From: a virus
Reading direction: 5' to 3' (one strand)
IMG/VR virus record: IMGVR_UViG_3300020021_000028
Coordinates: 1-38,477 of that record
Length of the DNA stretch: 38,477 bases
This document shows, in pieces, positions 5,756-33,641 of this stretch. The notes beneath the pieces were generated by a model. The model was not told where the DNA came from and did not search any database. It worked only from the letters and a program-made list of their open reading frames with translations. Position 1 is the stretch's first letter. Every line of letters starts with the position of its first letter. The position numbers and the translations under genes are program-made.

Positions 5756-7494
5756 CCGGTGTCGTGTTCGACCTTGAGGGAGCGGACGCCGACCGGCTGT
5801 ACCGCGGCGGGCACGACGGCCCCTACATCCGGCTGACCGGGGCGGTCAACCCCGCGGGCGGGCCGGCCGAGGTGGGCACCGATCCTGAAGCGTTCGCGGC
5901 CAGGCTCGCCGCGGTGGACGGGCGCAGGATCGGGCACAACATTCTCAAGCACGACATCCCCGCGCTCGCGCGGCACCACGGGGGCGACTTCACCGCGCTG
6001 GCCCGGGGCGCGGTGGATACGCTGGTGGCCGCGAGGCTGGCCGATCCGCCCGGGGCAAAGGGTCAGAAGCCGTGGGGCGTACCGGGGTACTACGGCCTCG
6101 ATCAGGTGGCGCAGCGCTACGGGGTGGCCGGCTCCCGGGATGCTGCCAAAGGGGTGCTCGCCGACCTGGCCGCAGAATTCGGCGGGTACGACAAGATCCC
6201 CCAGGATGATGCGCGGTACCGGTCGTACCTGCGCGATGACCTGTCCGAGACAGAGGCCGTGTACCGGGCGCTGCTCCCCGTGATCGAGACTCCCTATGCG
6301 CAGCGTGAGATGCGAATCGTTGCCGTACAGCAACGGATGACTTTCAACGGGTGGCGCATTGACGTGCCCGAGCTGGCGGTCCGGGTCAAAGAGGAGGAGC
6401 GTCGCCAGGCCGAAGCACTGGAAGAGCTGCACGGCCTCGGCCTGCCCCGCACCACGGGCACCAAGCCGCTCGCCTCGGCCACGGGCAAGGAGTGGTTCGC
6501 CGCGGGGCTGGAACGGCTCGGTGTGCCGGTGCCGCGGACCCCTCCGACCAAGCGGTTCCCGGACGGGCAGCCGTCGGTGGCCGGAGACACGCTCAAGGAT
6601 CTGGCCAAGCGGACCGGTAGCCACCCGGTGCTGTCACAGGTGCTCGATCGCATGCTGATCGTGGCGGGCATCACCTCCAAGTACGCGGAGATCCAGCGGC
6701 ATCTGATCGGTGACCGGGTGCACGGCGGGATCGGGGCGGACCAGGCATCCGGCCGGTGGGCCATGACCAGGCCATCGCTCACCAACTTGGGCAAGCGCGG
6801 GGCTGAGAAGGTCGCGCAGCGCGGTCCCTTCCTCCCCGAGCACGGCCACGTCCTCATGACCTTCGACCTCGATCAGGTGGACATGCGCGCCATCGCGGCC
6901 CTGTCCCAGGACCCTGCCTACATGGCGCTTTTCGAGCCGGGCCAGGACGCGCACGCGATGATCGCGGACGCGGTCTTCGGCCGGCACGACGGCCCGTGGC
7001 GTGAGCGCTCCAAGCGGTGCGGGCACGGCTGGAACTACGGGATGGGGGTCAACGGCCTGATCCGCTCGGGCGTAGATCCGGAAGTAGCGCGTCAGTTCAA
7101 TCAGATGATGCTCGCCTCGTTCCCCGTGCTGTGCTCGGAGCGTGAGAAGTGGCGTGCCATCGCGGCGAGCGGAGCGTTGATGGACAACGGATTTGGCCGG
7201 AAGATGCGGCCCGACCCGGAGCGGTCCCACACCCAGGGGCCGGCGCTGATGGGGCAGGGCGGGGCCCGGGACATCATGTGCGAGGGACTGCTGCGGCTGG
7301 ACCCTGCGATCCACCCCATGCTGCGCGCCGTGGTCCATGACGAGATCGTGATGTCGGTCCCGATTAACCAGGTAAATGCGGTGCGCGAGCACGTGACCCA
7401 GGCCCTGACCTGGACATGGCGCGGTGTCCCGATCACGACCGGTGCGAGCCGGCCCGGGATCAACTGGGCTGACTGCTACGCGAAGGCGGCATGA
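5752..7494 (+). CDS. polA: Family A DNA polymerase (Pol I type), 580 aa
   Basis: Replicative phage polymerase. The N-terminus has a 3'-5' exonuclease-like domain with FDLEG (D7, E9) and GHNILKHD (61-68). The polymerase domain has motif A FDLDQVDMR (D372), motif B RSKRCGHGWNYG (419-430) and motif C VVHDE (527-531, D530 and E531). There is no 5'-3' flap nuclease domain, as usual for phage enzymes of about 600 aa. The GTG at 5752 overlaps the previous stop as GTGA and begins just before the first exonuclease motif; the upstream ATG at 5704 would lie inside the regulator gene. The downstream HTH gene overlaps its stop by four bases. Confidence 0.95.
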   Translation: MTGVVFDLEGADADRLYRGGHDGPYIRLTGAVNPAGGPAEVGTDPEAFAARLAAVDGRRIGHNILKHDIPALARHHGGDFTALARGAVDTLVAARLADPPGAKGQKPWGVPGYYGLDQVAQRYGVAGSRDAAKGVLADLAAEFGGYDKIPQDDARYRSYLRDDLSETEAVYRALLPVIETPYAQREMRIVAVQQRMTFNGWRIDVPELAVRVKEEERRQAEALEELHGLGLPRTTGTKPLASATGKEWFAAGLERLGVPVPRTPPTKRFPDGQPSVAGDTLKDLAKRTGSHPVLSQVLDRMLIVAGITSKYAEIQRHLIGDRVHGGIGADQASGRWAMTRPSLTNLGKRGAEKVAQRGPFLPEHGHVLMTFDLDQVDMRAIAALSQDPAYMALFEPGQDAHAMIADAVFGRHDGPWRERSKRCGHGWNYGMGVNGLIRSGVDPEVARQFNQMMLASFPVLCSEREKWRAIAASGALMDNGFGRKMRPDPERSHTQGPALMGQGGARDIMCEGLLRLDPAIHPMLRAVVHDEIVMSVPINQVNAVREHVTQALTWTWRGVPITTGASRPGINWADCYAKAA

Positions 7495-7739
7495 TGGCCG
7501 GTGGCCTGGACATGGAAATAGTGCTGTGCTGCCTGCTCCGGGTCACCCCGGCAGGGCCGGGTGACAGGGGCCGGTCCCTGCCGTTGGAAGCTGACTGGCT
7601 GCGGGCGGCGGATCGGAGGGAGGTAGCACGCCGGGCCACCCGGTGCGGTTACAGCTCGAAGCAGATCGCGGCCCTGTTGGGGGTCACCCCGCGGACCGTG
7701 TTCCGGTACCGGGCCTACTGGCGTACGACAGACCTGTGA
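7491..7739 (+). CDS. Helix-turn-helix protein, 82 aa
   Basis: The C-terminal half, GYSSKQIAALLGVTPRTVFR followed by YRAYWR, is a clear sigma-region-4/resolvase-like HTH. The N-terminal half (LPLEADWLRAADRREVARRA) looks like a short helical support. The ATG at 7491 overlaps the polymerase stop as ATGA. A DNA-binding regulatory role is inferred; a target could be the CGTACGACAG promoter that begins inside its last codons. Confidence 0.75.
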   Translation: MMAGGLDMEIVLCCLLRVTPAGPGDRGRSLPLEADWLRAADRREVARRATRCGYSSKQIAALLGVTPRTVFRYRAYWRTTDL

Positions 7740-7745
7740 TACGAT
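7718..7745 (+). promoter_or_regulatory. Rightward promoter with CGTACGACAG box
   Basis: CTGGCG (7718-7723) and TACGAT (7740-7745) are 16 bases apart, with TGA directly before TACGAT (extended -10). The bases after the -35, TACGACAG, match the box in the two minus-strand promoters near 5.1 and 5.5 kb. It would drive the tiny Cys-rich ORF at 7781. Confidence 0.6.
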
Positions 7746-7780
7746 ATAGCTCTGTTACACCGAGAGAAAGGACAAGGACC

Positions 7781-7926
7781 ATGTTCTGCTCCAACCCCGA
7801 CTGCCGCAAGATGGGCTGCTCCAGCACGCCCCGTAAGGGCGCCTGACGTTCTGCGACGGCAATCACGAGTGGGTCATGTGGGGCGGAAAGATGCGCTGCC
7901 GCAAGTGCGGCACCCCGCAGGGCTAG
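7781..7926 (+). CDS. Tiny Cys-rich reading frames (21 aa ORF at 7781-7846, then Cys-rich frame to 7926)
   Basis: An ATG at 7781 with a good GAGAAAGGA ribosome-binding site opens a 21-residue peptide with three cysteines (MFCSNPDCRKMGCSSTPRKG, then A and stop). In the -1 frame, from 7849, the DNA continues FCDGNHEWVMWGGKMRCRKC and ends GTPQG before TAG at 7926. Together they look like the two halves of one small zinc-ribbon protein of about 47 aa (CxxxxC, then CRKC). The two frames could be joined by frameshifting or be split by a mutation or sequencing error. Alternatively a 16-aa peptide could start at ATG 7876. A promoter lies just upstream and a strong terminator just downstream, so the unit is transcribed by itself. 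Confidence 0.45.
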
Positions 7927-7937
7927 ACCTGCACGAC

Positions 7938-7969
7938 GAACGCCCCGGGCGACGGGACCCGGGGCGTTC
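7938..7969 (+). terminator. Hairpin terminator
   Basis: Perfect 12-bp arms GAACGCCCCGGG (7938-7949) and CCCGGGGCGTTC (7958-7969) with an 8-nt loop lie after the tiny Cys-rich unit. There is no long T tract, as is common in high-GC actinobacterial systems. Confidence 0.75.
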
Positions 7970-8000
7970 TGCCCACCCAGCGAGAGGAAGGAACCTCCGC

Positions 8001-8438
8001 ATGTCATCACGGTACAGCTACGGCGCGTCACTGGAGTACAGGGTCCGGGACGACTTCGAGCAGGAAGGCTACTACGTGGTCCGGTCCGCCGGTTCCGCAG
8101 GGGTGGCCGACCTGGTGGCACTGGACATGTACGCCCCCGGGCCGCCGGTCATGATCCAGGTCAAGCGGGCCAAGGGAACCATGTCCGTGGCCGCGTGGAA
8201 CCACCTGCTGAGGATCGCGGGCGCGGCGGGTGCGGTGCCCGTGCTCGCTGTCGAGCACCCCACCAGGCCGCTCGTCTACACGTTGCAGCGCATCACCGCT
8301 CCGCGCCGGCCGCGCCGGCAGGCAACCCCGGACCAGTGGGAGGTCTGGCCGCTGGTCCCGGCAGAGGTGCGGTCCGTGACCGTGCACCTGGACAACACTG
8401 ACGCGGTGTTCGAGCCGTCGCCACGGGGCCGGTCATGA
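8001..8438 (+). CDS. Hjc-like Holliday junction resolvase, 145 aa
   Basis: A PD-(D/E)XK fold of the archaeal Hjc/phage resolvase type. Visible are E12 (LEYRVRDDF), the RSAGSAGVADLVALD segment with D37, and IQVK (Q53, K55); the usual acidic residue of ExK is Gln here, which also occurs in related nucleases. The enzyme would cut branched DNA during replication or before packaging. The ATG at 8001 has GGAAGGA upstream and replaces a longer frame that begins inside the preceding terminator region. Its stop overlaps the whiB ATG (ATGA). Confidence 0.8.
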   Translation: MSSRYSYGASLEYRVRDDFEQEGYYVVRSAGSAGVADLVALDMYAPGPPVMIQVKRAKGTMSVAAWNHLLRIAGAAGAVPVLAVEHPTRPLVYTLQRITAPRRPRRQATPDQWEVWPLVPAEVRSVTVHLDNTDAVFEPSPRGRS

Positions 8439-8707
8439 CCGGGGAGTGGCAGGATCTGGCCGCGTGCAGGGGGCACGACCCCAAGATCTTCTGCAAGGAC
8501 GGGCAGAAGGGTTCGTACCAGCTGGCGAAGCGGTTCTGTGCGGTGTGCCCGGTCATCGGCACCTGCCTTGAGGCTGCGCTGAGCGAGGAAGGCGCCACGC
8601 CCCGGAATTTTCGGGCGTGCATCCGAGGGGGCAAGACCCCTGAGGAGCGGCACGACATTCACATGGGGCGGCGGCCGGCCCCTGCGGCCCGTCTGGTACC
8701 CGCGTAG
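8435..8707 (+). CDS. whiB: WhiB-family regulator, 90 aa
   Basis: WhiB proteins are actinobacterial [4Fe-4S] transcription regulators that act with the principal sigma factor. Here the cluster cysteines are C11 (DLAACRGHD), C35, C38 and C44 (FCAVCPVIGTC), with an extra C20, followed by the conserved turn CIRGG and a basic tail. Length and order match phage WhiB proteins. ATGA overlap with the resolvase stop fixes the start. It may shift host transcription toward phage genes or block host WhiB function. A terminator follows directly. Confidence 0.9.
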   Translation: MTGEWQDLAACRGHDPKIFCKDGQKGSYQLAKRFCAVCPVIGTCLEAALSEEGATPRNFRACIRGGKTPEERHDIHMGRRPAPAARLVPA

Positions 8708-8804: not shown

Positions 8805-9797
8805 ATGGCAGTCAGCTATGCCGTAGACGTGTCGAACAACCAGGCGAGCCACCAGCCCTGGAAGTCTTTCGGCGTCCACATGGGCATCGTCAAGGCGAGC
8901 GAGGGGCAGCACGGCCGGGATGCGTGGTTCACCCGGCACATGGACGACATCGCGCGTGCCGGCATCAAGGTCCGCGGGGCGTATCACTTCGCCTGGCCGA
9001 ACCAATCCGCGGCGGCCGAGGCGATGAACTACTGCGCGGCCGTCGGCCCGTACGCACGGGCCGGGATGATGTACCACATCCTGGATCTTGAGCCGTACCC
9101 GGACGGGCGCAACTACCAGGGCGCGACGGCGGCCCAGATCAAGGCGTATGCGGCTACCTGGGTGGCCTCGGTCAAGCGTTCTTTCCCGGGTCACCCCGTG
9201 CTGGTCTACACCCCGCGCGACAACGTGGGCAGGCACTACCCGTCCAACAGTGACGGCTACTGGTACCCCGCGTACCCCGTCCAGGGGCGAAGCTTCGCGC
9301 AGGCCGCGAAGCTGTCCCGTCCAGAATCGGGCCCCGGCGGGAGCCCCGTGTGGGGCTGGCAATTCACCAGCATCCCGCTGGACCGGACCGTGGTCTACCT
9401 GACGCCGGCCGATCTGCTGGCCACGGTGGCCGGCACCCCTGCGACACCATCCAAGGAGGAAGACATGCCCATATCAGCCGCTGATGTGGAGCGGATCGAG
9501 AACGCGGTATGGACCAGGCTGTGGACCAGCCCGACCACCGGTAAGCCCACCATGATGGGCACCTACCTGGCGTACGGCGATGCGCACTTCGCGGCCACGG
9601 TCAAGGCGGTGCAGGACGCGGCCAACGCCACCACCGCCGGAGTGGTGAGCGCGGTGGTCAAGGCGCTGACACCGCTGATCGGCACGGACGCCGACACTGA
9701 CCGGGTGGTGAGCGCGCTGAAGCAGGCGCTGATCGATACGCCGGCTCTCAAGATCGAGGTCACTCAGGCCCCGGCTACCCCAAGTGACGGAGCGTAA
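8805..9797 (+). CDS. Endolysin, GH25 lysozyme with C-terminal domain, 330 aa
   Basis: A glycoside hydrolase 25 muramidase that cleaves the host cell wall. The N-terminal domain (1-~205) starts with YAVDVSNN (D8) and has the catalytic D-x-E pair in HILDLEP (D94, E96) and a YHFAWP strand. A short linker rich in Thr, Pro and Ala is followed by a helical C-terminal domain (~221-330) with alternating Ala/Val helices, probably for cell-wall binding or oligomerisation. Start ATG 8805 has a strong GGGAGGAAGG site. An internal in-frame ATG at 9465 with AAGGAGGA could make the C-terminal domain separately. The gene opens the lysis module. Confidence 0.93.
   Translation: MAVSYAVDVSNNQASHQPWKSFGVHMGIVKASEGQHGRDAWFTRHMDDIARAGIKVRGAYHFAWPNQSAAAEAMNYCAAVGPYARAGMMYHILDLEPYPDGRNYQGATAAQIKAYAATWVASVKRSFPGHPVLVYTPRDNVGRHYPSNSDGYWYPAYPVQGRSFAQAAKLSRPESGPGGSPVWGWQFTSIPLDRTVVYLTPADLLATVAGTPATPSKEEDMPISAADVERIENAVWTRLWTSPTTGKPTMMGTYLAYGDAHFAATVKAVQDAANATTAGVVSAVVKALTPLIGTDADTDRVVSALKQALIDTPALKIEVTQAPATPSDGA
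9453..9797 (+). CDS. Internal translation unit of the endolysin C-terminal domain, 110 aa (putative)
   Basis: Inside the endolysin, AAGGAGGA (9453-9460) precedes an in-frame ATG at 9465, which would give a 110-aa protein starting MPISAADVERIENAVWTRLW. It coincides with the linker/domain boundary. Other GH25 and amidase endolysins make such free binding-domain subunits and assemble with them. The reading frame is certain; use of the start is inferred from the ribosome-binding site. Confidence 0.55.
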   Translation, partial: KEEDMPISAADVERIENAVWTRLWTSPTTGKPTMMGTYLAYGDAHFAATVKAVQDAANATTAGVVSAVVKALTPLIGTDADTDRVVSALKQALIDTPALKIEVTQAPATPSDGA

Positions 9798-15348: not shown

Positions 15349-15902
15349 CCCAGCGTGAGCAATCGGACTGGCGCGTCCAGCGCGCCCCGATGGACGCCCC
15401 GACCGGCTACCCCTGGCGGGTGCTGCACCCGGACGTGGTCCGCTCGTTCGCTACCCAGGGTGAGGCGTTCGAGTACGCCATGCGCCGGGCGGACAAGTGC
15501 ACCGTGTGCGGGAGCTGCGCCCACGACCACGGCGGCTGGTCGCACGCCTACACCCGGGCCAAGCGGGCCCGCGCCCGTACGGAGGACGTGAGCACCCTCA
15601 CCCAGGCCCCGGGTACGGTGCGCGCCGTGACGGACGTGCTGCTGCCCCACGGGTGCGGCGTGTGCGCGGGCATGATCGCGGGGTGGTGCGGCACGTGCGG
15701 CCGGCTGTGCACGCCGGAGCTGGACGCGGCGTCTGTGACGGTCCAGGTGCCGCACCACCCCGCCGCGGCCCGGTACGCGGACCTGGTCAGGCTGTACAAC
15801 GAGCTGGTGACGCCCCATGGCCTGGCTCCCATGGACCCGGCGCGCATCCTCGGCGCAGAGCGGGAGCCCCTGGCGTTCACGGACAGCGGTGACGTTACGT
15901 GA
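15345..15902 (+). CDS. Cys-rich zinc-binding protein, 185 aa
   Basis: ATG 15345 overlaps the previous stop as ATGA. Residues 47-60 hold CTVCGSCAHDHGGW and residues ~104-120 hold CGVCAGMIAGWCGTCGRLC, giving at least eight Cys plus His, enough for two zinc sites. The rest is mixed, with a helical C-terminus. Position just before the large terminase subunit suggests a packaging or DNA-binding accessory, but nothing in the sequence proves it. The last bases overlap the terminase GTG. Confidence 0.65.
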   Translation: MTQREQSDWRVQRAPMDAPTGYPWRVLHPDVVRSFATQGEAFEYAMRRADKCTVCGSCAHDHGGWSHAYTRAKRARARTEDVSTLTQAPGTVRAVTDVLLPHGCGVCAGMIAGWCGTCGRLCTPELDAASVTVQVPHHPAAARYADLVRLYNELVTPHGLAPMDPARILGAEREPLAFTDSGDVT

Positions 15903-17317
15903 CCATGGCCGCGCCCCCTGCCCCGGGTGCTGAGCAGGTCCACACCTTCAAGGCGCAGGGGGCCGCGGTCGATCTCTGGAAGGCCCGGGCCAACGAGGTG
16001 CTGATGTCGGGGCCGGCGGGCACCGGCAAGTCCCGGGCGTGTCTGGAGAAGCTGCACGCCCTCATGCTGAAGTACCCGGGTGCGCGCGGGCTGATGGTGC
16101 GCAAGACCCGGGAGTCCCTGACATCTACGGGCCTGGTCACGTTCCGTGAGAAGGTCGCGAACGAGGCGATCGATACCGGGCTGGTGGAGTGGTACGGCGG
16201 CAGCCATGAGGAGCCCCCGCAGTACCGGTACGGCAACAGCTCCAAGATCATGGTCGGGGGCATGGACAAGCCGACCAAGATTATGTCGTCCGAGTACGAC
16301 GTGATCTTCGTGCAGGAGGCTATCGAGCTGACCGTGACCGACTGGGAGAACCTGACCACGCGCCTGCGCAATGGCGTGGTGCGTACCATGCAGCTGATCG
16401 CGGACACCAACCCCGACCGGCCGCAGCACTGGCTGAAGCAGCGCGCGGACACCGGCGCCACGTCCCTGATCGAGTGCCGGCATGAGGACAACCCCATGCT
16501 GTACGACGCCGCTGCGCGGGACTGGACGGACGCGGGCCGCGTCTACATGGCCCGGCTGGGCGCGCTGACCGGGGTGCGCAAGGAGCGCTTGCTCAGGGGC
16601 CGGTGGGTCACGGCCGAGGGGCTGGTGTACGAGAACTGGGACCCATCGGTCCACCTGCTCCCGGCCATGCGCCGGCCGCCCAAGAGCTGGCCGGTCTTCT
16701 GGTCGATCGACTTCGGGTACACGAATCCTTTCGTGTGCCAGTGGTGGGCGCAGGACCCGGACGGCAGGCTGCACCTGTACCGGGAGCTTTACCGCACCAA
16801 GCGCCTGGTCGAAGATCACGCCAAGGACATCATGCGGCAGGTGGCCACCTGCAAGCGGCAGTGTGATCGCACGGACCGCGACCACTTCCCGCTCACCTGC
16901 GAGCGCTGTCAGGTGGTGTGGATGGAGGCCAGGCCCACCGCGATCATCTGCGATCATGACGCGGAGGACCGTGCCACGCTGACCAAGCACCTGCGGTTGC
17001 AGACTGTGCCCGCCAAGAAGACCAAGACCCGGGGCATCCAATGCGTAGAGTCACGGCTCAAGGTGCAGCCGGACGGGCACCCGCGGCTGTACATTCACAG
17101 GGACGCACTGACCGAGCGTGACGAGCTGCTGGAGGAGGCGAAGCTCCCGCTCTGCACGGAGCAGGAGATCGGCGGGTATGTGTGGCCGCCCGAGGCGGTG
17201 GCGGGCACGGCGCCCAAGGAGGAGCCGGTCAAGCGCGACGACCACGGCATGGACGGCATGAGATACATCGTGGCCCACCACGATCTCAAGGGGAGGTACG
17301 ACATCAAATGGCTGTGA
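15899..17317 (+). CDS. terL: Terminase large subunit, 472 aa
   Basis: The packaging motor and headful/cos nuclease. ATPase motifs: Walker A SGPAGTGKS (37-45) and Walker B YDVIFVQE (133-140, catalytic E140). RNase H-like nuclease motifs: WSIDFGY (D271) and IICDHDAED (D352, D354), with a final Asp-rich segment KRDDHGMDGM near the C-terminus. A Cys-rich patch (CKRQCDRTDRDHFPLTCERC, about residues 319-338) inserted between the nuclease motifs probably binds zinc. Start GTG 15899 overlaps the previous stop (GTGA); ATG 15905 is an alternative. Length is typical. Confidence 0.95.
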   Translation: MTMAAPPAPGAEQVHTFKAQGAAVDLWKARANEVLMSGPAGTGKSRACLEKLHALMLKYPGARGLMVRKTRESLTSTGLVTFREKVANEAIDTGLVEWYGGSHEEPPQYRYGNSSKIMVGGMDKPTKIMSSEYDVIFVQEAIELTVTDWENLTTRLRNGVVRTMQLIADTNPDRPQHWLKQRADTGATSLIECRHEDNPMLYDAAARDWTDAGRVYMARLGALTGVRKERLLRGRWVTAEGLVYENWDPSVHLLPAMRRPPKSWPVFWSIDFGYTNPFVCQWWAQDPDGRLHLYRELYRTKRLVEDHAKDIMRQVATCKRQCDRTDRDHFPLTCERCQVVWMEARPTAIICDHDAEDRATLTKHLRLQTVPAKKTKTRGIQCVESRLKVQPDGHPRLYIHRDALTERDELLEEAKLPLCTEQEIGGYVWPPEAVAGTAPKEEPVKRDDHGMDGMRYIVAHHDLKGRYDIKWL

Positions 17318-17583
17318 CCACCGACCGCCCCGCGATCGACCGCGGTACCCGCCCGTGGGGCAAGGCTGCCCCCACCCGGGCCAGGCTGCGGGCGCAGCTG
17401 TCCAGCGCCGGCCGCACGGTCCGCCAGCGCATCGTCAGTGCCCGGTCCGCCCTGCTGACCGTGACCGGGTTCGGCTGGATCGACGCAGCGGCCTGGCACA
17501 CCCTTGGCGCCGGGGCGGGGTTCCTGACCATCGGCGTATCGTTCCTGGTGATCGAGTTCCTGAGCCGGGAGGTCACCGCGTGA
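17308..17583 (+). CDS. Small membrane protein between terminase and portal, 91 aa
   Basis: ATG 17308 overlaps the terminase end by 10 bases and has GGGGAGG about 10 nt upstream. The N-terminal half is basic (TTDRPAIDRGTRPWGKAAPT, then RARLRAQL); the C-terminal half contains hydrophobic stretches (WHTLGAGAGFLTIGVSFLVI). A membrane location is likely. Similar small ORFs occur at this place in actinophages, but the function is not known. Confidence 0.6.
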   Translation: MAVTTDRPAIDRGTRPWGKAAPTRARLRAQLSSAGRTVRQRIVSARSALLTVTGFGWIDAAAWHTLGAGAGFLTIGVSFLVIEFLSREVTA

Positions 17584-19820
17584 GGTCACCGCTGCGCGCC
17601 GTGGTGGACCTGGTCCCGCGCGGCACGGCCAGGACGCCGGTGCCGATCCCCAGCCGCGCGCAGTCCGAGCGCTCGATCTTCTCGGGGACCAGCTCGCAGG
17701 CCACCTCGGCCATCGACGCCATGGGCTCGGTCGGCACCCTGTTCAACATCGTGAGCACCACGTCACAGGCTGTAGCCAAGGTGAAGTGGCAGCTGTGGCG
17801 CAGCGCCAAGAGCGGTGACCCCAAGGACCGGGTCCTGGTCGCGGACCACCAGGCACTGCGGGTGTGGAACAGGCCGAACGATTTCATGTCCGGTATGCGC
17901 TTCCGGGAGGCGCAGGCGCAGCACCTCAAGCTGACCGGCGAGGCGTGCTGGGTGGTGCAGCGGCAGGCCCCGGCCCCGTGGCCCATGGGCATGTGGCCGG
18001 TGCGACCGGACCGGATCACCCCGGTCCCCAGCGTAGAGACCTTCCTCGCCGGGTTCGTCTACACCAGCCCGGACGGGGAGCAGGTGCCGCTGGGGATCGA
18101 GGACGTGATCCGCCCCATGATGCCCAACCCCGCGGACCCCTACCGGGGCATGGGCGCGGTGCAGGCCATCCTCACCGACCTCGACAGCGAGCGGTACACG
18201 GCCGAGTGGAACCGGAACTTCTTCCGGAACTCGGCCACGCCCGGGGGCATCATCGAGGTGCCCGAGGGGCTTCAGGATGCGGACTTCCGCCGGTTGCAGC
18301 GGCGGTGGGCTGAGCAGCACCGCGGGGTGGCCGCTGCGCACCGGGTGGGCATCCTGGAAGCGGGCATGAAGTGGATCGACCGGTCCTTCAGTCAGCGCGA
18401 CATGCAGTTTGCTGAGCTCCGGCAGGTCGGGCAGGACGTCATCCGTGAGGCGTTCGGCTTCCCGGGTTTCGCCGCGGGCAAGGTCACGGACGTGAACAGG
18501 GCGACGGCCGAGGCGTCCGACTTGTGGTTCGACAAGCACCTGACCGTGCCGGACCTGGACCGGATCAGGGACGCGGCCAACTGTGAGTTCCTGCCGCTGT
18601 TCGGGCTGGCCGGGGCGGGGCTGGAATTCGACTACATCAGCCCCGTGCAGGGGGATGAGGAGCAGGACGCGGAGATCCTGGTGTCCCGCTCCAAAGCCCT
18701 GCACAACTTCACCCAGGCAGGCGTGTACGGGCCCGACGCCCTGGAACTGGCGGGCCTGCCGGGTGACGCCGACTTCGGCCAGCCGGGCGCGGACCCGGAC
18801 CGCATCCTGCTGACCTCGCTGGTCCAGGGCGCGCCGTCGCTGGCACCCATGATCCTGCCCGTGCTCATGCCGGGCGTGGACTGGTCGAACACCGCGCCGT
18901 CCATCACGCTGCCCCGGGCCCACCCCGGCGAGGTGGCACCCGGGGCAGCAGCCGTACCGGGCGCCCCGGTGCCCAAGGAGCTGGAGGCCGCGCCCAAGGA
19001 CCGGGGCGTGCACCTGATCACCAGCGCAGCGGACGGAGCACACCTGATGGGCTGCATGATCGCGCTGGTACCCAGCGCTCCGGACGCCGCGCGGATCGCG
19101 GTGCCCGGCGGGGAGCTGGCCGATGATCTTCACCTGACCCTGGCCTACCTGGGGCCGGACGCAGGCGACTGGTCGCCCAACGACACCCGCGGCGTGATCG
19201 ACGCCGTGCGCAGTTACGCTGCGTACCTGCCTACCGTGGACGCCAAGATCTTCGGCGCTGCGCTCTGGAACGCGGACACCGATAAACCCGCATGGGTCTG
19301 GAACGTGGGCGACTACGAAGCGGGCGGTGTCCTCACCCGGGCCCGCGCCACCGTGCTGGCCGGCGCGGAGGACGTGCTGTACGACCGGTTCCCGGTCCAG
19401 CGCACGCCCTGGGCGGCGCACGTCTGCGCGGCGTACAGCGCGGACCCTGCGCTGCTCCCCGTGCTGTCCGAGCGCATGGGCGCGCTGATCTTCGACCGGG
19501 TAAGGGTCACGTTCGGTGACCTGGTCACGGACATCATGATCGGCCCTGTCCCGGGCACCGAGCTCGATCCTTCCGTTGGCTACGACGACCACGGCGTGCC
19601 CGTGATCGAGGCGGCCATGCGCTGGGTGGTGAAGGCGCACAAGGATGACAGCACGTGCGCGCCGTGCCTGGCACAGGACGGGAAGCTGTACCGTAACCGT
19701 GAGTCAGCGTATGAGGACTACCCGGACGGCAAGTCCTACGTCAACTGCGTAGGCGCCAAGTACGGCAACGACTGCAGGTGCACCGTGGTCAAGCGCGGGC
19801 GCAAGGGAGGCGGGGAGTAG
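17580..19820 (+). CDS. Portal protein fused to 2H phosphoesterase-like domain and MuF-type tail, 746 aa
   Basis: Residues 1-~460 are an HK97-type portal (VGTLFNIVSTTSQAVAKVKW, SERYTAEWNRNFFRNSATPG, VTDVNRATAEASD), the dodecameric ring through which DNA enters and leaves the head. Residues ~480-660 carry a 2H phosphoesterase-like domain with LHLTLAYLG (H518, T520) and WAAHVCAAY (H614, C616). Two HxT/S-type motifs about 95 residues apart define that superfamily; the second has Cys in place of Ser/Thr. Residues ~685-746 look like the C-terminal part of MuF proteins: DDSTCAPCLAQDGK (C693, C696) and NDCRCTVV (C732, C734). GTG 17580 overlaps the previous stop. It is several hundred residues longer than a simple portal, and the ring would present twelve copies of each extra domain. 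Confidence 0.85.
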   Translation: MRSPLRAVVDLVPRGTARTPVPIPSRAQSERSIFSGTSSQATSAIDAMGSVGTLFNIVSTTSQAVAKVKWQLWRSAKSGDPKDRVLVADHQALRVWNRPNDFMSGMRFREAQAQHLKLTGEACWVVQRQAPAPWPMGMWPVRPDRITPVPSVETFLAGFVYTSPDGEQVPLGIEDVIRPMMPNPADPYRGMGAVQAILTDLDSERYTAEWNRNFFRNSATPGGIIEVPEGLQDADFRRLQRRWAEQHRGVAAAHRVGILEAGMKWIDRSFSQRDMQFAELRQVGQDVIREAFGFPGFAAGKVTDVNRATAEASDLWFDKHLTVPDLDRIRDAANCEFLPLFGLAGAGLEFDYISPVQGDEEQDAEILVSRSKALHNFTQAGVYGPDALELAGLPGDADFGQPGADPDRILLTSLVQGAPSLAPMILPVLMPGVDWSNTAPSITLPRAHPGEVAPGAAAVPGAPVPKELEAAPKDRGVHLITSAADGAHLMGCMIALVPSAPDAARIAVPGGELADDLHLTLAYLGPDAGDWSPNDTRGVIDAVRSYAAYLPTVDAKIFGAALWNADTDKPAWVWNVGDYEAGGVLTRARATVLAGAEDVLYDRFPVQRTPWAAHVCAAYSADPALLPVLSERMGALIFDRVRVTFGDLVTDIMIGPVPGTELDPSVGYDDHGVPVIEAAMRWVVKAHKDDSTCAPCLAQDGKLYRNRESAYEDYPDGKSYVNCVGAKYGNDCRCTVVKRGRKGGGE

Positions 19821-20533
19821 TGGCACGGATCTGGACACCCGGGCAGGTGGCCAACCTCCAGCGGACCGGGCGTGCGTCCTGGTACCGGGTGGAGGCCAGT
19901 GCATCGGGAGTCACGGAGGTCTCGATCTATGACGCCATCGGGGAGTGGGGCGTCACTGCCCGTGACTTCCTCAACGAGCTGGGGGAGATCAAGGGCGCGA
20001 TCGAGCTGCACCTGAACAGCGAGGGCGGTGAGGTCTTCGACGGCATGGCCATCTACGACGCGCTCAAGCGGCGCGGCGGGATCACCGTGCACGTGGACTC
20101 CCTCGCTGCCTCGATCGCGTCCGTCATCGCGCAGGCAGGCGAGCGCCGGATCATGGCGCCGCAGGCCACGATGATGATCCATGAGGCCAGCTCGGGGGCC
20201 GCGGGCAACGCTTCCGACCTGCGCACGCTGGCCGATCTGCTGGACAAGACCTCGGACAACATCGCCTCGGTGTACACCGAGCGCGCCGGTGGCGACCTGG
20301 CCGGGTGGCGTGCGTCGATGCAGGCCACCACCTGGTACAGCGCGGCCGAGGCCGTCAAGGCGGGGCTTGCTGATGAGGTGCGGGGTACCGCGCCCATCAC
20401 GGGCCTGGCCGAACCCGCCAAGCCCGCGGGCGCGACAGTGCCCGTGAACCGGGCGGACGCCGCGGCCCCCGCGCCGGCCGCCACCCTGACCACCATCGCG
20501 GACCTGATCCGCGCACAGAAGGGACCGCGATGA
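19820..20533 (+). CDS. ClpP-like capsid maturation protease, 237 aa
   Basis: A head maturation protease of the ClpP fold. Evidence: the strand IELHLNSEGGEVFDGMAIYD, the catalytic Ser in SLAASIASV (S98) and the catalytic His in MMIHEASSG (H121), followed by the helical dimer region DLRTLADLLDKTSDNIASVY. It would trim the capsid protein and perhaps the portal/MuF tail during head assembly. GTG 19820 shares one base with the portal TAG and has GGGAGG upstream; a longer frame from 19778 is rejected. Its stop overlaps the capsid ATG. Confidence 0.9.
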   Translation: MARIWTPGQVANLQRTGRASWYRVEASASGVTEVSIYDAIGEWGVTARDFLNELGEIKGAIELHLNSEGGEVFDGMAIYDALKRRGGITVHVDSLAASIASVIAQAGERRIMAPQATMMIHEASSGAAGNASDLRTLADLLDKTSDNIASVYTERAGGDLAGWRASMQATTWYSAAEAVKAGLADEVRGTAPITGLAEPAKPAGATVPVNRADAAAPAPAATLTTIADLIRAQKGPR

Positions 20534-21909
20534 CCAAGCTGGCAATCCCCCAGACCCAAGTCGAGATGGAGGAGATGCTGAGTGACCCCACTCAGCTCGC
20601 CAAGATCGTAGAGGACGGCGGCCTGCCCGAGTTCGTCAAGGCGTACGCGGGCAGCGCCATGTCCGCGAAGACGGACCTCGCTGTGCAGGTCCGTGAGCAG
20701 ACGCAGATGGTCCTCACGGACTGGCTCAAGGAGCACGGGCAGGATCTGGAGAAGCGCTCCAACCTGCTGGACCTGCGCCCCAAGGGGGCCGACGACTTCG
20801 CGTCCAAGCCCACCAGCCTGTACAACCCCCGGGCTGTCGGGGCGCACAAGGACATCGCGCACCTGTACCCGGACGCCGCGTCCCTGTTCCAGGCCATCTG
20901 GCACAATCCCCTCGCCTCGAACAGCACCAAGGAGGCGCGCGAGCGCCTTGAGGTGCTGCGTAACTACAGCGAGTCACAGCCCAGCGAGGGCGGCTTCCTG
21001 GTCCCGGAGATCCTGCGCAGCGAGCTGCTTCAGATCTCGCTGGAGAAGGCCGTGGTCCGGCCGCGCGCCCGCGTGATCCCGATGGAGAGCCAGCGGGTCC
21101 CGTTCCCCAAGATCGACTCCACCACGAACGTGGGCTCGGTCTACGGCGGCATCACCTCGTACTGGGTGGAGGAGTCCGCTGACCTCCCCGAGTCCGAGGC
21201 CAGCTTCGGGCGCGCCGTGCTGGACGCCAAGAAGCTGATCACGTACGCGGAGGCTCCGAACGAGCTGGTCCGCGACTGGTCAGCCTTCGGCGCCTTCATC
21301 GGGTCTGTCATGCCCGAGGCGATGGCGTTCTTCGAGGACCTGGCGTTCATGGGCGGCAACGGCGTCGGCATGCCGACCGGCGCCCTGAACACCTCCAACG
21401 GCGCCAACATCGCGGTACTCGCAGAGCCGGGCCAGGCTTCTGCCACGATCGTGTGGCAGAACGTCATCAAGATGTTCGCCCGCATGCTGCCGCAGTCCCT
21501 GAGCAGCGCCGTGTGGGTCGCGACCATCGACGCGTTCCCCGAGCTGGCCACCATGGCGCTGTCGGTGGGCACCGGCGGCGGCCCCGTGTGGCTGGGCGGC
21601 CCGAACTCTTCCGGTGCGGACACGCCCCCGGTCACCATCCTCGGCCGCCCGGTGATCTTCACGGAGAAGACCCCGAGCGCGCTCGGCGGCCAGGGCGACC
21701 TGTCGTTCGTTGACCTGTCGTACTACCTGATCGGCGACCGCCAGCAGATGACGGCCGAGTCCAGCGAGCACTACAAGTTCAAGAGCGACCGGACTTCCTA
21801 CCGCATCACGCAGCGCGTGGACGGCCGGCCGTGGCTGGACAGCGCCATCACGCCGGCCAACGGCGGCCCGGCCCTGTCTCCGTTCGTCCAGCTCGCGGCG
21901 CGCCCGTAA
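20530..21909 (+). CDS. HK97-fold major capsid protein, 459 aa
   Basis: The sequence follows the HK97-fold pattern: a helical, charged N-terminal arm (1-~130) likely removed or used as internal scaffold, then QPSEGGFLVPEILRSELLQI, the segment VVRPRARVIPMESQRVPFPK and the E-loop/P-domain strand YAEAPNELVRDW. The A-domain follows (FEDLAFMGGNGVGMPTGALN), with the C-terminal YYLIGDRQQMTAESSEHYKF and FVQLAARP end. The ATG overlaps the protease stop (ATGA). No separate scaffold gene is seen, which fits an N-terminal delta domain. A strong terminator follows. Confidence 0.95.
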   Translation: MTKLAIPQTQVEMEEMLSDPTQLAKIVEDGGLPEFVKAYAGSAMSAKTDLAVQVREQTQMVLTDWLKEHGQDLEKRSNLLDLRPKGADDFASKPTSLYNPRAVGAHKDIAHLYPDAASLFQAIWHNPLASNSTKEARERLEVLRNYSESQPSEGGFLVPEILRSELLQISLEKAVVRPRARVIPMESQRVPFPKIDSTTNVGSVYGGITSYWVEESADLPESEASFGRAVLDAKKLITYAEAPNELVRDWSAFGAFIGSVMPEAMAFFEDLAFMGGNGVGMPTGALNTSNGANIAVLAEPGQASATIVWQNVIKMFARMLPQSLSSAVWVATIDAFPELATMALSVGTGGGPVWLGGPNSSGADTPPVTILGRPVIFTEKTPSALGGQGDLSFVDLSYYLIGDRQQMTAESSEHYKFKSDRTSYRITQRVDGRPWLDSAITPANGGPALSPFVQLAARP

Positions 21910-28319: not shown

Positions 28320-30855
28320 CAGCGTGCGGATCGCGATCACGGGTAGTTCCACTGACGCGCAGAACGCTATCGAGGCCGCGAACCGTGCCGCCAAGGAGGC
28401 GGCCGGCGGGGGTCTGGACAAGCTCAAGGGCGCGTTGCTCTCCCTGGCACCGGCCGCCATCCCCATCGCTGCCAGCCTGGTCCCCATCGCCGCGCACATG
28501 GGCGCCGGGGCAGTGGCGGCGGGGGCGTTCGCAGCCGCGATCATCCCGCAGGTGAAGCAGTTCGGGGAGCTGTCCACCGCGCAGGACAAGGCGACCGCTG
28601 CAGCGGCCAAGTACGGGGCCGGCTCCAAGCAGGCGGCCGAGGCCAGCGACCTGGCGTACGAGGCACTGAAAGCCCTGCCGCCCGAGACGCAGCGGGCGGC
28701 CGAGGCTTTCTCGATCCTTAAGGACAGCTATCAGGGCTGGTCCGACAGCCTCGCCAAGGACACCATGCCCGTCTTCGCCAAGGGCCTGGCGGTGGTGAAC
28801 GCGCTGCTTCCGCAGACCACGGGCCTGGTCACCGGGGCGTCCAAGCAGTTCGACCGGCTGGTGACCACCCTCGGCGGGCAGGTCTCCACTCCCGGGTTCG
28901 ACGCGGCGGCGGCCAGGTTCAGGAAGTTCGCGAACGAATCGCTGAAGAGCGCGACGGATGAGGCCATCCACTTGGAGCGGGTGCTGTCGCAGGGCGACGC
29001 CAGCGGCCCCATCAGCACGTTCATGGACTACGTCAACAAAACCGGGCCGGAAGTAAAGGACACGCTGCGTAACCTCGGTGACACGCTGCTACATGTGGGC
29101 GAGGCTGCCGCCGACGCGGGCCCCGGGATGCTGTCCGTGGTCAACGTGCTCGCCAAGATCGTGGACTCCGTACCGGAAGCCGTACTGACCAGGCTCGTAC
29201 AGCTGTACACGGTCCTCAAGCTGATGGCGCTGACCAAGGTGGGTGTCGAGCTGGCGGGGGCCGCGGTGCTGCGCCTCGCGGGCTCGATCAATGCGGCGGG
29301 CATCCGGATGGCCGCGGCCGGCGGCGGGGTGCGCGGCCTGGCCGCGGAGTTCGGCCGGCTGTCCACTGCCACCAAGATCACTGGCACGCTGGCCGCCATC
29401 GCAGCGCTGTACCTGGTGGTCAACAAACTCACCGAGTCGAGCCGGAAAGCCCCGGACATCGACAGGATGACCACCGCTATCGGCCGGCTCGGGGACACCG
29501 GCAAGGTTAGCGGGGAAGCCGCGCGGATCTTCGGTTCTGACCTGAGCGGTCTTGCCAAGGATATTGACCGGGTGACCGGCGGCGGTTCCAAGATGGACCA
29601 CTTCAACGATGTCATGAACAAAGTCTTTTCCCTGGGAATGGCCAAGTCCAATTCGGCCAAGCAGGCGAGCAAGGATCTTGACGCGCTGGACAAGAGCCTT
29701 GCCAACCTGGTGCAGGGCGGCCATGCGGACCTGGCCGCGCAGGCTATAAAGGATCTACAGAACGAGACCGGCAAGAAGATCCCCACCAAGTCGCTCGACA
29801 ATTACAAGAGCGCGCTAGCGGACCTGGATTACGAGAACAAGCTCGCGTCGGAATCCCTCGGCCTTTTCGGGGCGCAGTCCCTGGAAGTGCAGAAGCGGCT
29901 CAACGCACAGAAGCAGAGCGCACAGGGATTGCAGCAGGCGATTCTGGACCTCAATGACGCGAACCGCGCCGGCATGGACGCCATGTCGGATTTCGAACAG
30001 GCCATTGACGACTCCACCGCCGCGATAAAGGGGCACCGGAACGCGCTGTCGTACAGTAACGGCGAGCTGGACCTGACCAGCAAGAAGGCGCGCGAGGCGT
30101 ACAAGCCGCTGTCCGACCTGGCCAGTACCGCGGAGGCCGCGGCCACTGCCGCGATCCAGCAGGGCAAGAGCCAGGACTACGCCAACGGCATCCTGATCCG
30201 GGCGCACGACCAGCTAGTCAAGGCAGGCCAGCAGATGGGCCTGACCCGGTCGCAAGCGATCAAGCTGGCCGACTCGCTCGACAACATCAAGGACCCGAAG
30301 ATCAAGGTCACGGGCTCGGTGGCGCAGCTCACCAGCGTCATCGCGGACGCAAAGCGCAAGCTGGCGTCCCTGCCCAAGTCGCATTCCTCCCGGGTCAACG
30401 CCGATTCCTCGCAGTTGCGGAACGTGATCAGGGACGCTCAGGCGCGCATCAACTCGCTCCGGGGGAAGACCGTGCCGATCATCATCTCGCAGACCTACAC
30501 CACGCACGGGAGCGTGGCCCATGAGGGCGGCGGGTACGCCACCGGCGGCCCGGTGGGTCTTGGCCGGCGCGCCGGTACCGCGGCGGTGGGCGGCCCGCGC
30601 AGCGACATGACGTGGGTCGGTGAAGCAGGGCCGGAGCTGGTCAGCCTCGCGCCCGGAAGCTCGGTCCGGCCGCACGCCAACTCGGTGATGGACGCCCGGG
30701 GCGGCGGGAGCGGGGGAGGCGAGGCGCAGCACATCTACCTGATGGTGCCGGACGGCCGTGTGCTGGCCGAGTGGCTGTTGGAGCCCATGCGGAACTTGGT
30801 GATCCGCAAGGGCCGCGGGGACGTGCAGCAGACCTGGGGAAAGAGGGTTGGCTGA
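28312..30855 (+). CDS. Tape measure protein, 847 aa
   Basis: A long helical, Ala-rich protein with hydrophobic segments near the N-terminus (LLSLAPAAIPIAASLVPIAA and AGAVAAGAFAAAIIPQV) and in the middle (TLAAIAALYLVVNKL), flanked by coiled-coil regions. The Gly-rich C-terminus (VAHEGGGYATGGPVGLGRRA, then WVGEAGPELVSL) is typical of actinophage tape measures. It sets tail length; at the usual ~1.5 Å per residue it predicts a tail of roughly 120-130 nm. It overlaps the chaperone end and is followed at once by the minor tail gene. Confidence 0.92.
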   Translation: MTNSVRIAITGSSTDAQNAIEAANRAAKEAAGGGLDKLKGALLSLAPAAIPIAASLVPIAAHMGAGAVAAGAFAAAIIPQVKQFGELSTAQDKATAAAAKYGAGSKQAAEASDLAYEALKALPPETQRAAEAFSILKDSYQGWSDSLAKDTMPVFAKGLAVVNALLPQTTGLVTGASKQFDRLVTTLGGQVSTPGFDAAAARFRKFANESLKSATDEAIHLERVLSQGDASGPISTFMDYVNKTGPEVKDTLRNLGDTLLHVGEAAADAGPGMLSVVNVLAKIVDSVPEAVLTRLVQLYTVLKLMALTKVGVELAGAAVLRLAGSINAAGIRMAAAGGGVRGLAAEFGRLSTATKITGTLAAIAALYLVVNKLTESSRKAPDIDRMTTAIGRLGDTGKVSGEAARIFGSDLSGLAKDIDRVTGGGSKMDHFNDVMNKVFSLGMAKSNSAKQASKDLDALDKSLANLVQGGHADLAAQAIKDLQNETGKKIPTKSLDNYKSALADLDYENKLASESLGLFGAQSLEVQKRLNAQKQSAQGLQQAILDLNDANRAGMDAMSDFEQAIDDSTAAIKGHRNALSYSNGELDLTSKKAREAYKPLSDLASTAEAAATAAIQQGKSQDYANGILIRAHDQLVKAGQQMGLTRSQAIKLADSLDNIKDPKIKVTGSVAQLTSVIADAKRKLASLPKSHSSRVNADSSQLRNVIRDAQARINSLRGKTVPIIISQTYTTHGSVAHEGGGYATGGPVGLGRRAGTAAVGGPRSDMTWVGEAGPELVSLAPGSSVRPHANSVMDARGGGSGGGEAQHIYLMVPDGRVLAEWLLEPMRNLVIRKGRGDVQQTWGKRVG

Positions 30856-33641
30856 TGGCCGGGCGATTCGCACCCAGCGTGCAGCTACAGATCAACGGGG
30901 TCTGGACCGACGTGACGTCCCGGGTCCGCGGCGCCATCGATGTGGAGTACGGGATCAAGGCGTCGGGCGGGAAGATCGCGGACCCTGCCAGTTGTTCGAT
31001 GACGCTGGAGAACAATGACGGGGCCCTGTCCATCCGCAACCCCCTGTCGCCGTACTACCCGTGGCTGGGGGTCAACACCCCGATCAGGGTGGGGCAGGCC
31101 GTCATCGGGGCCGCCCCGTGGCTGGACATGCCCAACGGGAGCACCGGCCGCGCAAGCACCCCGGACGCGGCGGTGCTCGACATCACGGGGGACCTGGACC
31201 TTCGTGCGGATATCGAGTGCGCCGTGTGGGGTGACGCGGTCGATTCCAACCTGGGCGCTCAGGAGATCATGGGCAAGTCCACGGCGGTGGGGTCGCAGAA
31301 GTCCTGGCTCTTCCTCGTCACCTCGGACGGGGGTCTGAAGCTGTTCTGGTCCGCGGACGGGAGTACTGACCTGGGGGTCGCGTCCGTCGCGGTGGGCCAG
31401 GTGCCCGGTGCCCGGCTCAGTGTCCGGGTCACGCTTGACGTGGACAATGGCTCCAGCGGCTGGACGGCTACTTTCTACACCAGCACCACGCCGGGCACTT
31501 CAGGCCCCTGGACGATGCTCGGTACGCCGATCACTGTCGCGGGCATCACCTCGATCTTCAACAGCACGACGGCCGTCCACGTGGGGGACGTGGCCACGGT
31601 TGGTTTCGGGAACCTGGCAAGGAAGATCTTCAAGGCCGAGGTGCGGTCCGGGATCGGCGGGACGATCGTGGCCAACCCCGACTTCACCGCGCAGGCCCTG
31701 GGCGCCACCAGCTTCGCGGACACCGCCCCGTCCGCGCGCACCTGGACCGTCACGGCCGGCGCGGTGACCAACGTCTACCGGCGGTTCACCGGCCAGGTCA
31801 GCGAGTATCCGCCGACCTGGGACACGGGCGGCCAGGACGTCACGGTGCCCATCGTGGCGGCCAGTGCGCTGGACCGGTACAGCCGGTCGCGTACGGTCCT
31901 GTCGTCCACGCTCCGGCGCAGGATCGCGTCCTACTTCGGCCCCGCAGGCCCGAACACCTTGATCGCGTACTGGCCGTGCGAGGACGGGGCGGACGCCACG
32001 ACGGCCATGTCCCCTATCCCGGGTGTGGCGCCCATGACCACGTCCGGGGTCACGTTCGCCTCGGACAGCACCCTGCCCGGGTCGTCTCCGCTGCCCGTGC
32101 TCGGCACGGACAGCTCCACCTCGGAGGGGGCGGTGCCTTTCGCTGCACCCGGGCAGTGGGATGTCGAGCTGGTATACAAGATCCCTGCCGTCCCCCCGAG
32201 CAATTCAGCATTCTTCTATATCAATTCGTCTACAGGCACATGGCGCATCGCCATCGATTCCACGCTTATCCACGTAGACGTTTTCGATACCACGGGCACT
32301 TCCGTGTACAGCCTTGCCGGGATAACCAACCTCGGATTCACCGGGGCGTGGACGCACTTCAATTTCCAGACGCAGACGTCCGGATCGAACACGTCCTATC
32401 ACATGGGGTGGGTCGTGACCGGGGGCGGCGGGTTCTTCTGGGAAGACACGGTCACCGGCATTCTTCCGGGCCGGGTTACCAGCGTGGTGCAGTCCCATGG
32501 CGGCACGCTGGGGCAGATGTCTTTCGGGCACATCGCGGTCTTCAACGCCTACAACCTCGGCAACGCCGCGTTCTCAGGGGCCGACACGGGATTCAATCTG
32601 GAAAGGTCCACTGCCCGCGTCGTCCGCCTCGCCAAGGAGCAGGTGATTCCCATGTCCATCGTGGGCGCGGCGGGGGACGGGGTCCAGATGGGGCCGCAGC
32701 CGATAGACACCGTGATCAATACCCTGACCGACGCGGTACTTGCGGAGGAGACTTTCCTGTACGAGGCGCGGGATTTCGCGGGGCTCCGCTTCCGGAACCT
32801 CAACTCGATCTACGCGCAGCCGTCCATGCTCGATCTGCCGTACCGGTCCGGGTCCGGGAAGCAGATGATCGTCGCGCCGTTCAAGCCCGTGGGCGACTTG
32901 CAGAACGTGGTCAACGACAGCACGGTGACCATGGCCAACGGCACCTCCGCCCGGGTGCAGGTGACCACCGGACGCCTGTCCGTGCAGGAGGCGCCCAACG
33001 GGATCGGCACCGGCTACGCGGAGAACATCCCTGAGAACCTGGGCTACGCCAGCGACACCGCCGACCATGCCGGGTGGAGATCTTTTGTCGGCACCTTCGA
33101 CGCCGACCGGTACCCGAGTATCAGTCTCCGGCTGGAAAAGGATCTGACCCGGGTGCCGGACGTGGCGCGCCTAGACGTGACCCACCGGCTCAGGGTGCTG
33201 GCTCCGCTCCTCAGCCAGATGGCGCCCACCACCGTGGACCAGATGCTGCTGGGGTACTCCGAGCAGCTCGATCAGTTCTCATGGCTGTGGACGGGCGCCT
33301 GTCAGCCGCACGGGCCGTACGGGTCGGTACTCCGCTACGACGACGCGGTGGCCAAGTACGACGCCCCGAGCTGTACCCTGTCCGCCGGCATGACCACCAC
33401 GGCGACCTCCGCATCGGTGGTGCACGCCTACGACGCGGACCGGTGGGCGGACAGCGCGACCTACCCGGGGGACTTCCCTTTCAGCGTGGTCATAGCCGGC
33501 GAGGTCTGCACGTGCACCGCAGTCACGGGCACTACCGCGGTGCAGACCATGACGCTGACACGCAGCGTTAACGGCATCATCAAGGCGCAGGTCACCGGGG
33601 AACCCGTGCACCTCGCAGCCCCCAGCGTCTACGGATTGTGA
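30855..33641 (+). CDS. Minor tail protein with LamG/concanavalin-like domains, 928 aa
   Basis: Starts at ATG 30855 directly on the tape measure stop. The N-terminus (FAPSVQLQINGVWTDVTSRV, then GIKASGGKIADPASCSMTLE) is the usual distal-tail/baseplate entry domain. Residues ~100-290 and ~400-580 look like two jelly-roll (LamG/concanavalin) modules, of the kind that bind sugars on the host surface. The C-terminal ~280 residues return to a tail-associated fold (DVARLDVTHRLRVLAPLLSQ). Bases ~32190-32650 are noticeably AT-richer than the flanks, suggesting an exchanged receptor-binding module. Confidence 0.8.
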   Translation: MAGRFAPSVQLQINGVWTDVTSRVRGAIDVEYGIKASGGKIADPASCSMTLENNDGALSIRNPLSPYYPWLGVNTPIRVGQAVIGAAPWLDMPNGSTGRASTPDAAVLDITGDLDLRADIECAVWGDAVDSNLGAQEIMGKSTAVGSQKSWLFLVTSDGGLKLFWSADGSTDLGVASVAVGQVPGARLSVRVTLDVDNGSSGWTATFYTSTTPGTSGPWTMLGTPITVAGITSIFNSTTAVHVGDVATVGFGNLARKIFKAEVRSGIGGTIVANPDFTAQALGATSFADTAPSARTWTVTAGAVTNVYRRFTGQVSEYPPTWDTGGQDVTVPIVAASALDRYSRSRTVLSSTLRRRIASYFGPAGPNTLIAYWPCEDGADATTAMSPIPGVAPMTTSGVTFASDSTLPGSSPLPVLGTDSSTSEGAVPFAAPGQWDVELVYKIPAVPPSNSAFFYINSSTGTWRIAIDSTLIHVDVFDTTGTSVYSLAGITNLGFTGAWTHFNFQTQTSGSNTSYHMGWVVTGGGGFFWEDTVTGILPGRVTSVVQSHGGTLGQMSFGHIAVFNAYNLGNAAFSGADTGFNLERSTARVVRLAKEQVIPMSIVGAAGDGVQMGPQPIDTVINTLTDAVLAEETFLYEARDFAGLRFRNLNSIYAQPSMLDLPYRSGSGKQMIVAPFKPVGDLQNVVNDSTVTMANGTSARVQVTTGRLSVQEAPNGIGTGYAENIPENLGYASDTADHAGWRSFVGTFDADRYPSISLRLEKDLTRVPDVARLDVTHRLRVLAPLLSQMAPTTVDQMLLGYSEQLDQFSWLWTGACQPHGPYGSVLRYDDAVAKYDAPSCTLSAGMTTTATSASVVHAYDADRWADSATYPGDFPFSVVIAGEVCTCTAVTGTTAVQTMTLTRSVNGIIKAQVTGEPVHLAAPSVYGL

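Follow-up and report, generated by a model that had tools for sequence, protein, structure and literature searches.

The portal gene of this virus continues without interruption into a 2H phosphoesterase domain and a short MuF-like tail, and its product is best read as a head-associated 2H enzyme. Overall, we assign a probability of about 0.7 to the reading that this fusion portal is a head-associated 2H phosphodiesterase/RNase that arose by the merger of a portal gene with a 2H-MuF gene. If the 2H domain is active in the head, the protein would offer a small, testable example of a possible anti-signalling or RNA-processing enzyme that a phage has mounted on its portal. The three-part architecture of portal, 2H domain and MuF-like tail, which an earlier note on this DNA had proposed, is correct in our judgement, with a confidence close to certainty.

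The window analysed here is the whole stretch of 38,477 nucleotides that makes up positions 1 to 38,477 of IMG/VR virus record IMGVR_UViG_3300020021_000028. The fusion gene occupies positions 17580 to 19820 on the + strand and encodes 746 amino acids, with a Shine-Dalgarno-like GGGAGG just 5' of its GTG start and a TAG stop that, on inspection of the sequence, runs into the GTG at which the following gene starts. The frame runs from the portal into the 2H region as a single open reading frame with no internal stop, just as the earlier note had described it. Residues 54–367 (17739 to 18680, + strand) form a full-length HK97-type portal domain, covering profile positions 3–302 of the 321 in PF04860 (E 1e-52) and matching the portal family phrog_2662 (E 7e-61). 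A Pro/Ala-rich linker of about 50 residues follows (residues 437–487; 18888 to 19040, + strand), predicted to be disordered (pLDDT <50 in the full-length model), and then the 2H domain (residues 488–656; 19041 to 19547, + strand) and the Cys-rich tail (residues 673–746; 19596 to 19817, + strand). Confident folds were obtained in the full-length model for parts of the portal core and 2H domain; the tail was poorly predicted, mean pLDDT 67. On the same strand, the gene is preceded by that of the terminase large subunit (15899 to 17317; phrog_2, E 2e-32) and followed by those of a ClpP-like head maturation protease (19820 to 20533; phrog_2976, E 3e-66), which overlaps the fusion stop codon, and the major head protein (20530 to 21909; phrog_10, E 2e-41). 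This order of terminase, portal, ClpP protease and capsid is also that of Streptomyces phage Dagobah, whose portal is 40% identical but ends normally, without a 2H domain or MuF tail.

As the portal is a separate gene in most relatives, the possibility was weighed that two genes had been joined artificially, by misassembly, a frameshift or a sequencing error. Two independent IMG/VR contigs (L002 and L041) carry the same portal-2H-tail arrangement as a single open reading frame of 769 and 753 amino acids, respectively, with identity to the window fusion of ~64% over the best segment. Comparison of these two sister genes gave dN/dS values of ~0.13 for the portal, ~0.32 for the 2H domain and ~0.13 for the tail, and therefore all three parts are under purifying selection, weakest on the 2H part. 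Since the same triple fusion occurs in both contigs, sequencing error is excluded; the artefact explanation is refuted by these two contigs, leaving it a vanishingly small probability, and we are highly confident that the fusion is genuine. In the tree, the 2H domains of the three fusions form one clade (support 99/91), nested in a group otherwise made up of 2H-MuF proteins, with the window copy on a long branch (0.95). One scan of genome contigs found only a portal relative without a 2H domain. The linker contains in-frame ATG and GTG codons, none of which has a convincing Shine-Dalgarno sequence at the right distance in all three fusion phages, and from these sequences the production of a free 2H protein from an internal translation start in the linker is not supported.

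The domain following the linker belongs to the 2H superfamily by both fold and homology, in a clade with a variant second motif. By homology, phrog_2659 (named "RNA ligase") matches residues 481–647 (E 2.9e-22) and phrog_18402 (named "head maturation protease") matches residues 484–670 (E 1e-14), and in other phage head proteins, too, both families match the 2H part. The Pfam family 2_5_RNA_ligase2 matches relatives of the domain, one of them, from Rhodococcus phage E3, above cutoff. A profile search against PDB sequences yielded weak matches only (E 0.15–0.6), three of them named 2'-5' RNA ligase or RNA 2',3'-cyclic phosphodiesterase and the fourth a hypothetical protein that the title of its structure compares with 2'-5' RNA ligase. 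An AlphaFold model of the domain, run on an alignment of 63 relatives, reached a mean pLDDT of 90 and a pTM of 0.82, and structure comparison with Foldseek and VIA-align returned 2H proteins as the best solved matches, with a Foldseek E of 4e-6 to 2'-5' RNA ligase-like proteins. The highest Z scores were those of TT0787 (15.3), the P. horikoshii 2'-5' RNA ligase-like protein (14.2), human Usb1 (13.5–13.8) and E. coli LigT (13.7), with the rotavirus VP3 phosphodiesterase at 12.9 and the anti-CBASS nuclease Acb1 at 10.5. The predicted structure confirms a 2H (LigT-like) fold for residues ~488–656, bearing out what the earlier note had read from the motifs.

The closest solved fold is therefore that of the LigT/ThpR 2'-5' RNA ligase-like phosphodiesterases, from which the window domain differs in having HxC rather than HxT as its second motif and in being fused to a portal. 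The likeness to Acb1 that had been suggested earlier holds for the shared 2H fold and for phage origin, but by Z score the domain appears nearer to LigT/ThpR- and Usb1-type proteins, and Acb1 is thus probably a functional analogy and not a family to which the domain belongs. Acb1 is also a stand-alone protein, unlike the fused window domain. Membership was rejected on the motif, as Acb1 has an HxT/HxT active-site tetrad (H44/T46/H113/T115; PMC9117128) and the second motif of the window domain is HxC. The closeness of Usb1 raises another reading, in which the domain is a Usb1-like RNase acting against host or guide RNA and not a signal-degrading phosphodiesterase. Such an activity is one of two options that Iyer et al. 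2017 give for such 2H domains, and tie to MuF/portal fusions (PMC5512222); LigT/ThpR-type proteins nevertheless rank equal or higher, and substrate cannot be read from fold rank. We consider a Usb1-like RNase unlikely.

The first active-site motif, H518-L-T520 (19131 to 19139, + strand), has the H-x-[ST] form of the 2H superfamily, and the second, H614-V-C616 (19419 to 19427, + strand), has a cysteine in place of the Ser/Thr; the two lie 96 residues apart, and all four residues were found at the positions the earlier note had given. An HxS/T pair spaced 80–110 residues apart arises in ~4–5% of shuffles of the fusion protein, so the motifs alone are weak evidence and were not relied on; the identity of the domain is settled by homology and fold, independently of the motif pair. 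Among the aligned relatives, which were fetched with motif patterns and whose counts consequently carry sampling bias, H518 and T520 are each present in 63/63, H614 in 62/63 and a cysteine at position 616 in 60/63. Because of this bias, fairer cross-counts were used: HxT was present at the first motif in all 56 loci matching the motif-2 pattern, and histidine was present at the second motif in 18 of the 19 loci matching the motif-1 pattern, 16 of them with cysteine. The sole aligned relative with an arginine replacing the second histidine (ARICAAY; L063, 4986–5543) is possibly inactive. Neither of the outcomes that the earlier note had named as refuting its reading, a predicted structure lacking the 2H fold or weak conservation of H518 and H614, was thus observed.

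These counts bear on the second-motif cysteine, which the earlier note had taken as a possible mark of altered or lost activity. As a sign of decay in this phage it was rejected, since cysteine is the family consensus. The second motif reads HVC in the window, HIA in L002 and HVT in L041, so the histidine is held while the Ser/Thr is dispensable in this actinophage 2H clade. With no canonical Ser/Thr in the window or in L002, catalysis could be changed or lost, and canonical catalysis is not assumed here. Alternatively, the 2H domain may have changed or lost its catalysis and be retained to bind nucleotides or RNA, or as a structural element of the portal crown, which would fit this variation in the second motif and the faster evolution of the 2H part relative to portal and tail. 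A purely structural role would not, however, need both histidines and the first threonine to be almost invariant across a diverse family, and we regard this explanation as rather unlikely. It is a more speculative proposal, and a doubtful one, that the actinophage HxT/HxC clade is a distinct enzymatic subtype in which cysteine replaces the second threonine as a phosphate ligand, is perhaps redox-sensitive, and serves a dedicated nucleotide-signal nuclease placed in the head via portal, MuF or protease. In any case, the HxC clade poses the biochemical question of how far a 2H active site can vary.

The Cys-rich tail (C693, C696, C723, C732 and C734) represents no more of a MuF protein than its 75 C-terminal residues. 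The MuF-type tail of the earlier note therefore stands as far as C-terminal Cys-rich homology goes and does not extend to a whole MuF domain: PF04233 is matched over profile positions 64–111 of 112 only, at 13.1 bits against a cutoff of 29.6 (E 0.17). The tail carries the MuF C-terminal cysteine motif C-x2-C ... C-R-C, with CAPC beginning at residue 693 and CRC at residue 732. It shares 74–77% identity with the tails of the two sister fusions and 66% with a separate gene in L010, and it aligns to the C-terminus of 2H-MuF proteins with E down to ~1e-10. With Pfam alone below cutoff, its probable MuF identity comes from these sequence relatives. The layout of a MuF polymorphic toxin, with MuF followed by a C-terminal toxin and an adjacent immunity gene, is absent from this gene and its neighbour, as the 2H domain precedes the MuF remnant, nothing follows the remnant and the next gene encodes the protease.

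In about 30 other portal loci that were fetched, the portal ends normally, and in most of these the ClpP-like protease follows closely, as in Dagobah. Downstream of the portal, L105, L112, L115 and L117 have a MuF-like gene, which overlaps the portal stop in the last three, and L010 has the MuF tail as a small gene of its own after the portal. In L112, the gene directly after the portal (6322–7968) joins a MuF-like part to a segment resembling PI3/4 kinases (PF00454, E 2e-4, below cutoff), another possible cargo in the same slot. Across the 80-odd loci, the 2H family itself nearly always sits on MuF or on protease-MuF polyproteins, and it has such carriers in Streptomyces and Gordonia phages as well. 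It also occurs alone, unfused, in phages of Gordonia and Rhodococcus and, going by the annotation "RNA ligase", in many large mycobacteriophages. In Streptomyces phage YDN12, the portal overlaps a MuF-2H-protease gene, and in L014 it overlaps a 2H-MuF gene (5893–7992) that also has an ADP-ribosyltransferase. A second gene of the latter kind, with the ADP-ribosyltransferase C-terminal to 2H-MuF in both, occurs in L050 (4980–7010), giving two candidate effectors per head protein (PF03496, E 1.5e-18 and 2e-7, respectively). Pfam confirmed this domain in L014 and L050; the "ART" label in the domain tally of the 80-odd loci is inflated because the query began inside MuF.

Because the relatives have normal portals followed by a protease, a MuF gene or a lone MuF tail, the fusion looks like a merger of head genes. 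The simplest and most likely history, judged from the observed gene arrangements, is that a portal gene merged with a 2H-MuF gene located downstream, of a kind common in actinophages, and that most of the MuF would then have been lost while its C-terminal Cys-rich piece was kept. As the 2H domain is carried by portal, MuF and protease-MuF proteins, the common denominator of its fused carriers is a head component, and the occurrence of one 2H family on three such carriers argues that the head location is itself selected.

Fusions of portal and 2H, and the idea that they disarm nucleotide signals, have been in print since 2017. Iyer et al. 2017 report phage polyvalent proteins in which a 2H domain is joined to MuF or portal, and suggest that it acts as an RNase or degrades immune nucleotides (PMC5512222); a 2022 NAD/ADPr survey describes the same 2H-MuF/portal fusions with injection and counter-signalling (PMC9503650). 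Head packaging is proposed for them in both papers (PMC5512222, PMC9503650). These fusions share with the window protein the same two domain classes on one chain and the same proposed packaging and anti-signalling/RNase role, whereas the MuF of the window protein is a C-terminal remnant only; the window lineage may be among their examples (PMC5512222, PMC9503650). Only the three-part order and the HxC clade are less familiar, and either may already have been described. Portal-MuF gene fusions are known from Microbacterium phage clusters EA and EB, which, like the window, join portal and MuF in one actinophage gene but with no 2H domain reported between them (PMC7302621). The Streptomyces phages TurkishDelight, YDN12 and phiSAJS1 (2H-MuF-protease or MuF-2H-protease) share the 2H family (43–47% identity), the HxT...HxC/T motifs and the head-gene position; unlike in the window, their 2H carrier is a MuF/maturation protease and their portal is a separate gene.

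The product is a portal subunit that ends in a 2H domain and what is left of a MuF minor head protein. From known portal topology, the 2H domain may be expected at the crown, inside the capsid, in up to twelve copies per virion. It probably binds or cleaves a nucleotide substrate, for which cyclic oligonucleotide signals, 2'-5' bonds and RNA ends are candidates. Countering host nucleotide signalling is possible as its main role, at somewhat short of even odds. A role in tRNA/RNA end repair, by opening the 2',3'-cyclic phosphates that host anticodon nucleases leave behind, would suit the "RNA ligase" name of the PHROG and the cyclic-phosphate-opening activity of LigT-type 2H enzymes (PMC5283653). 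The window carries no tRNA, however, and no RNA ligase, kinase or KptA was among the genes scanned (part of the open reading frames of a record that may be incomplete), making tRNA repair less likely; in addition, Iyer et al. never found these 2H versions beside RNA ligases (PMC5512222). We judge end repair improbable.

For the preferred head-associated 2H enzyme, the place of action may be either of two cells. The domain could act in the infected cell as this late protein accumulates or, provided that the linker is cleaved, in the next host once it has been ejected there. The portal normally remains with the capsid, so delivery would need cleavage, and the domain may just as well act in the cell in which it is produced. 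The predicted disordered linker (residues 437–487) is a candidate cleavage region, from which the neighbouring protease might release the domain.

Finally, other genes of the window include a WhiB-like regulator (8435–8704), which fits an actinobacterial host, a GH25 lysozyme (8805–9797) and a weak Hjc-type resolvase match (7869–8438). A 956-amino-acid protein of the tail region (30771–33641) strongly matches phrog_5313, a family of unknown function, and also shows a "phosphodiesterase" PHROG match over residues 682–838.
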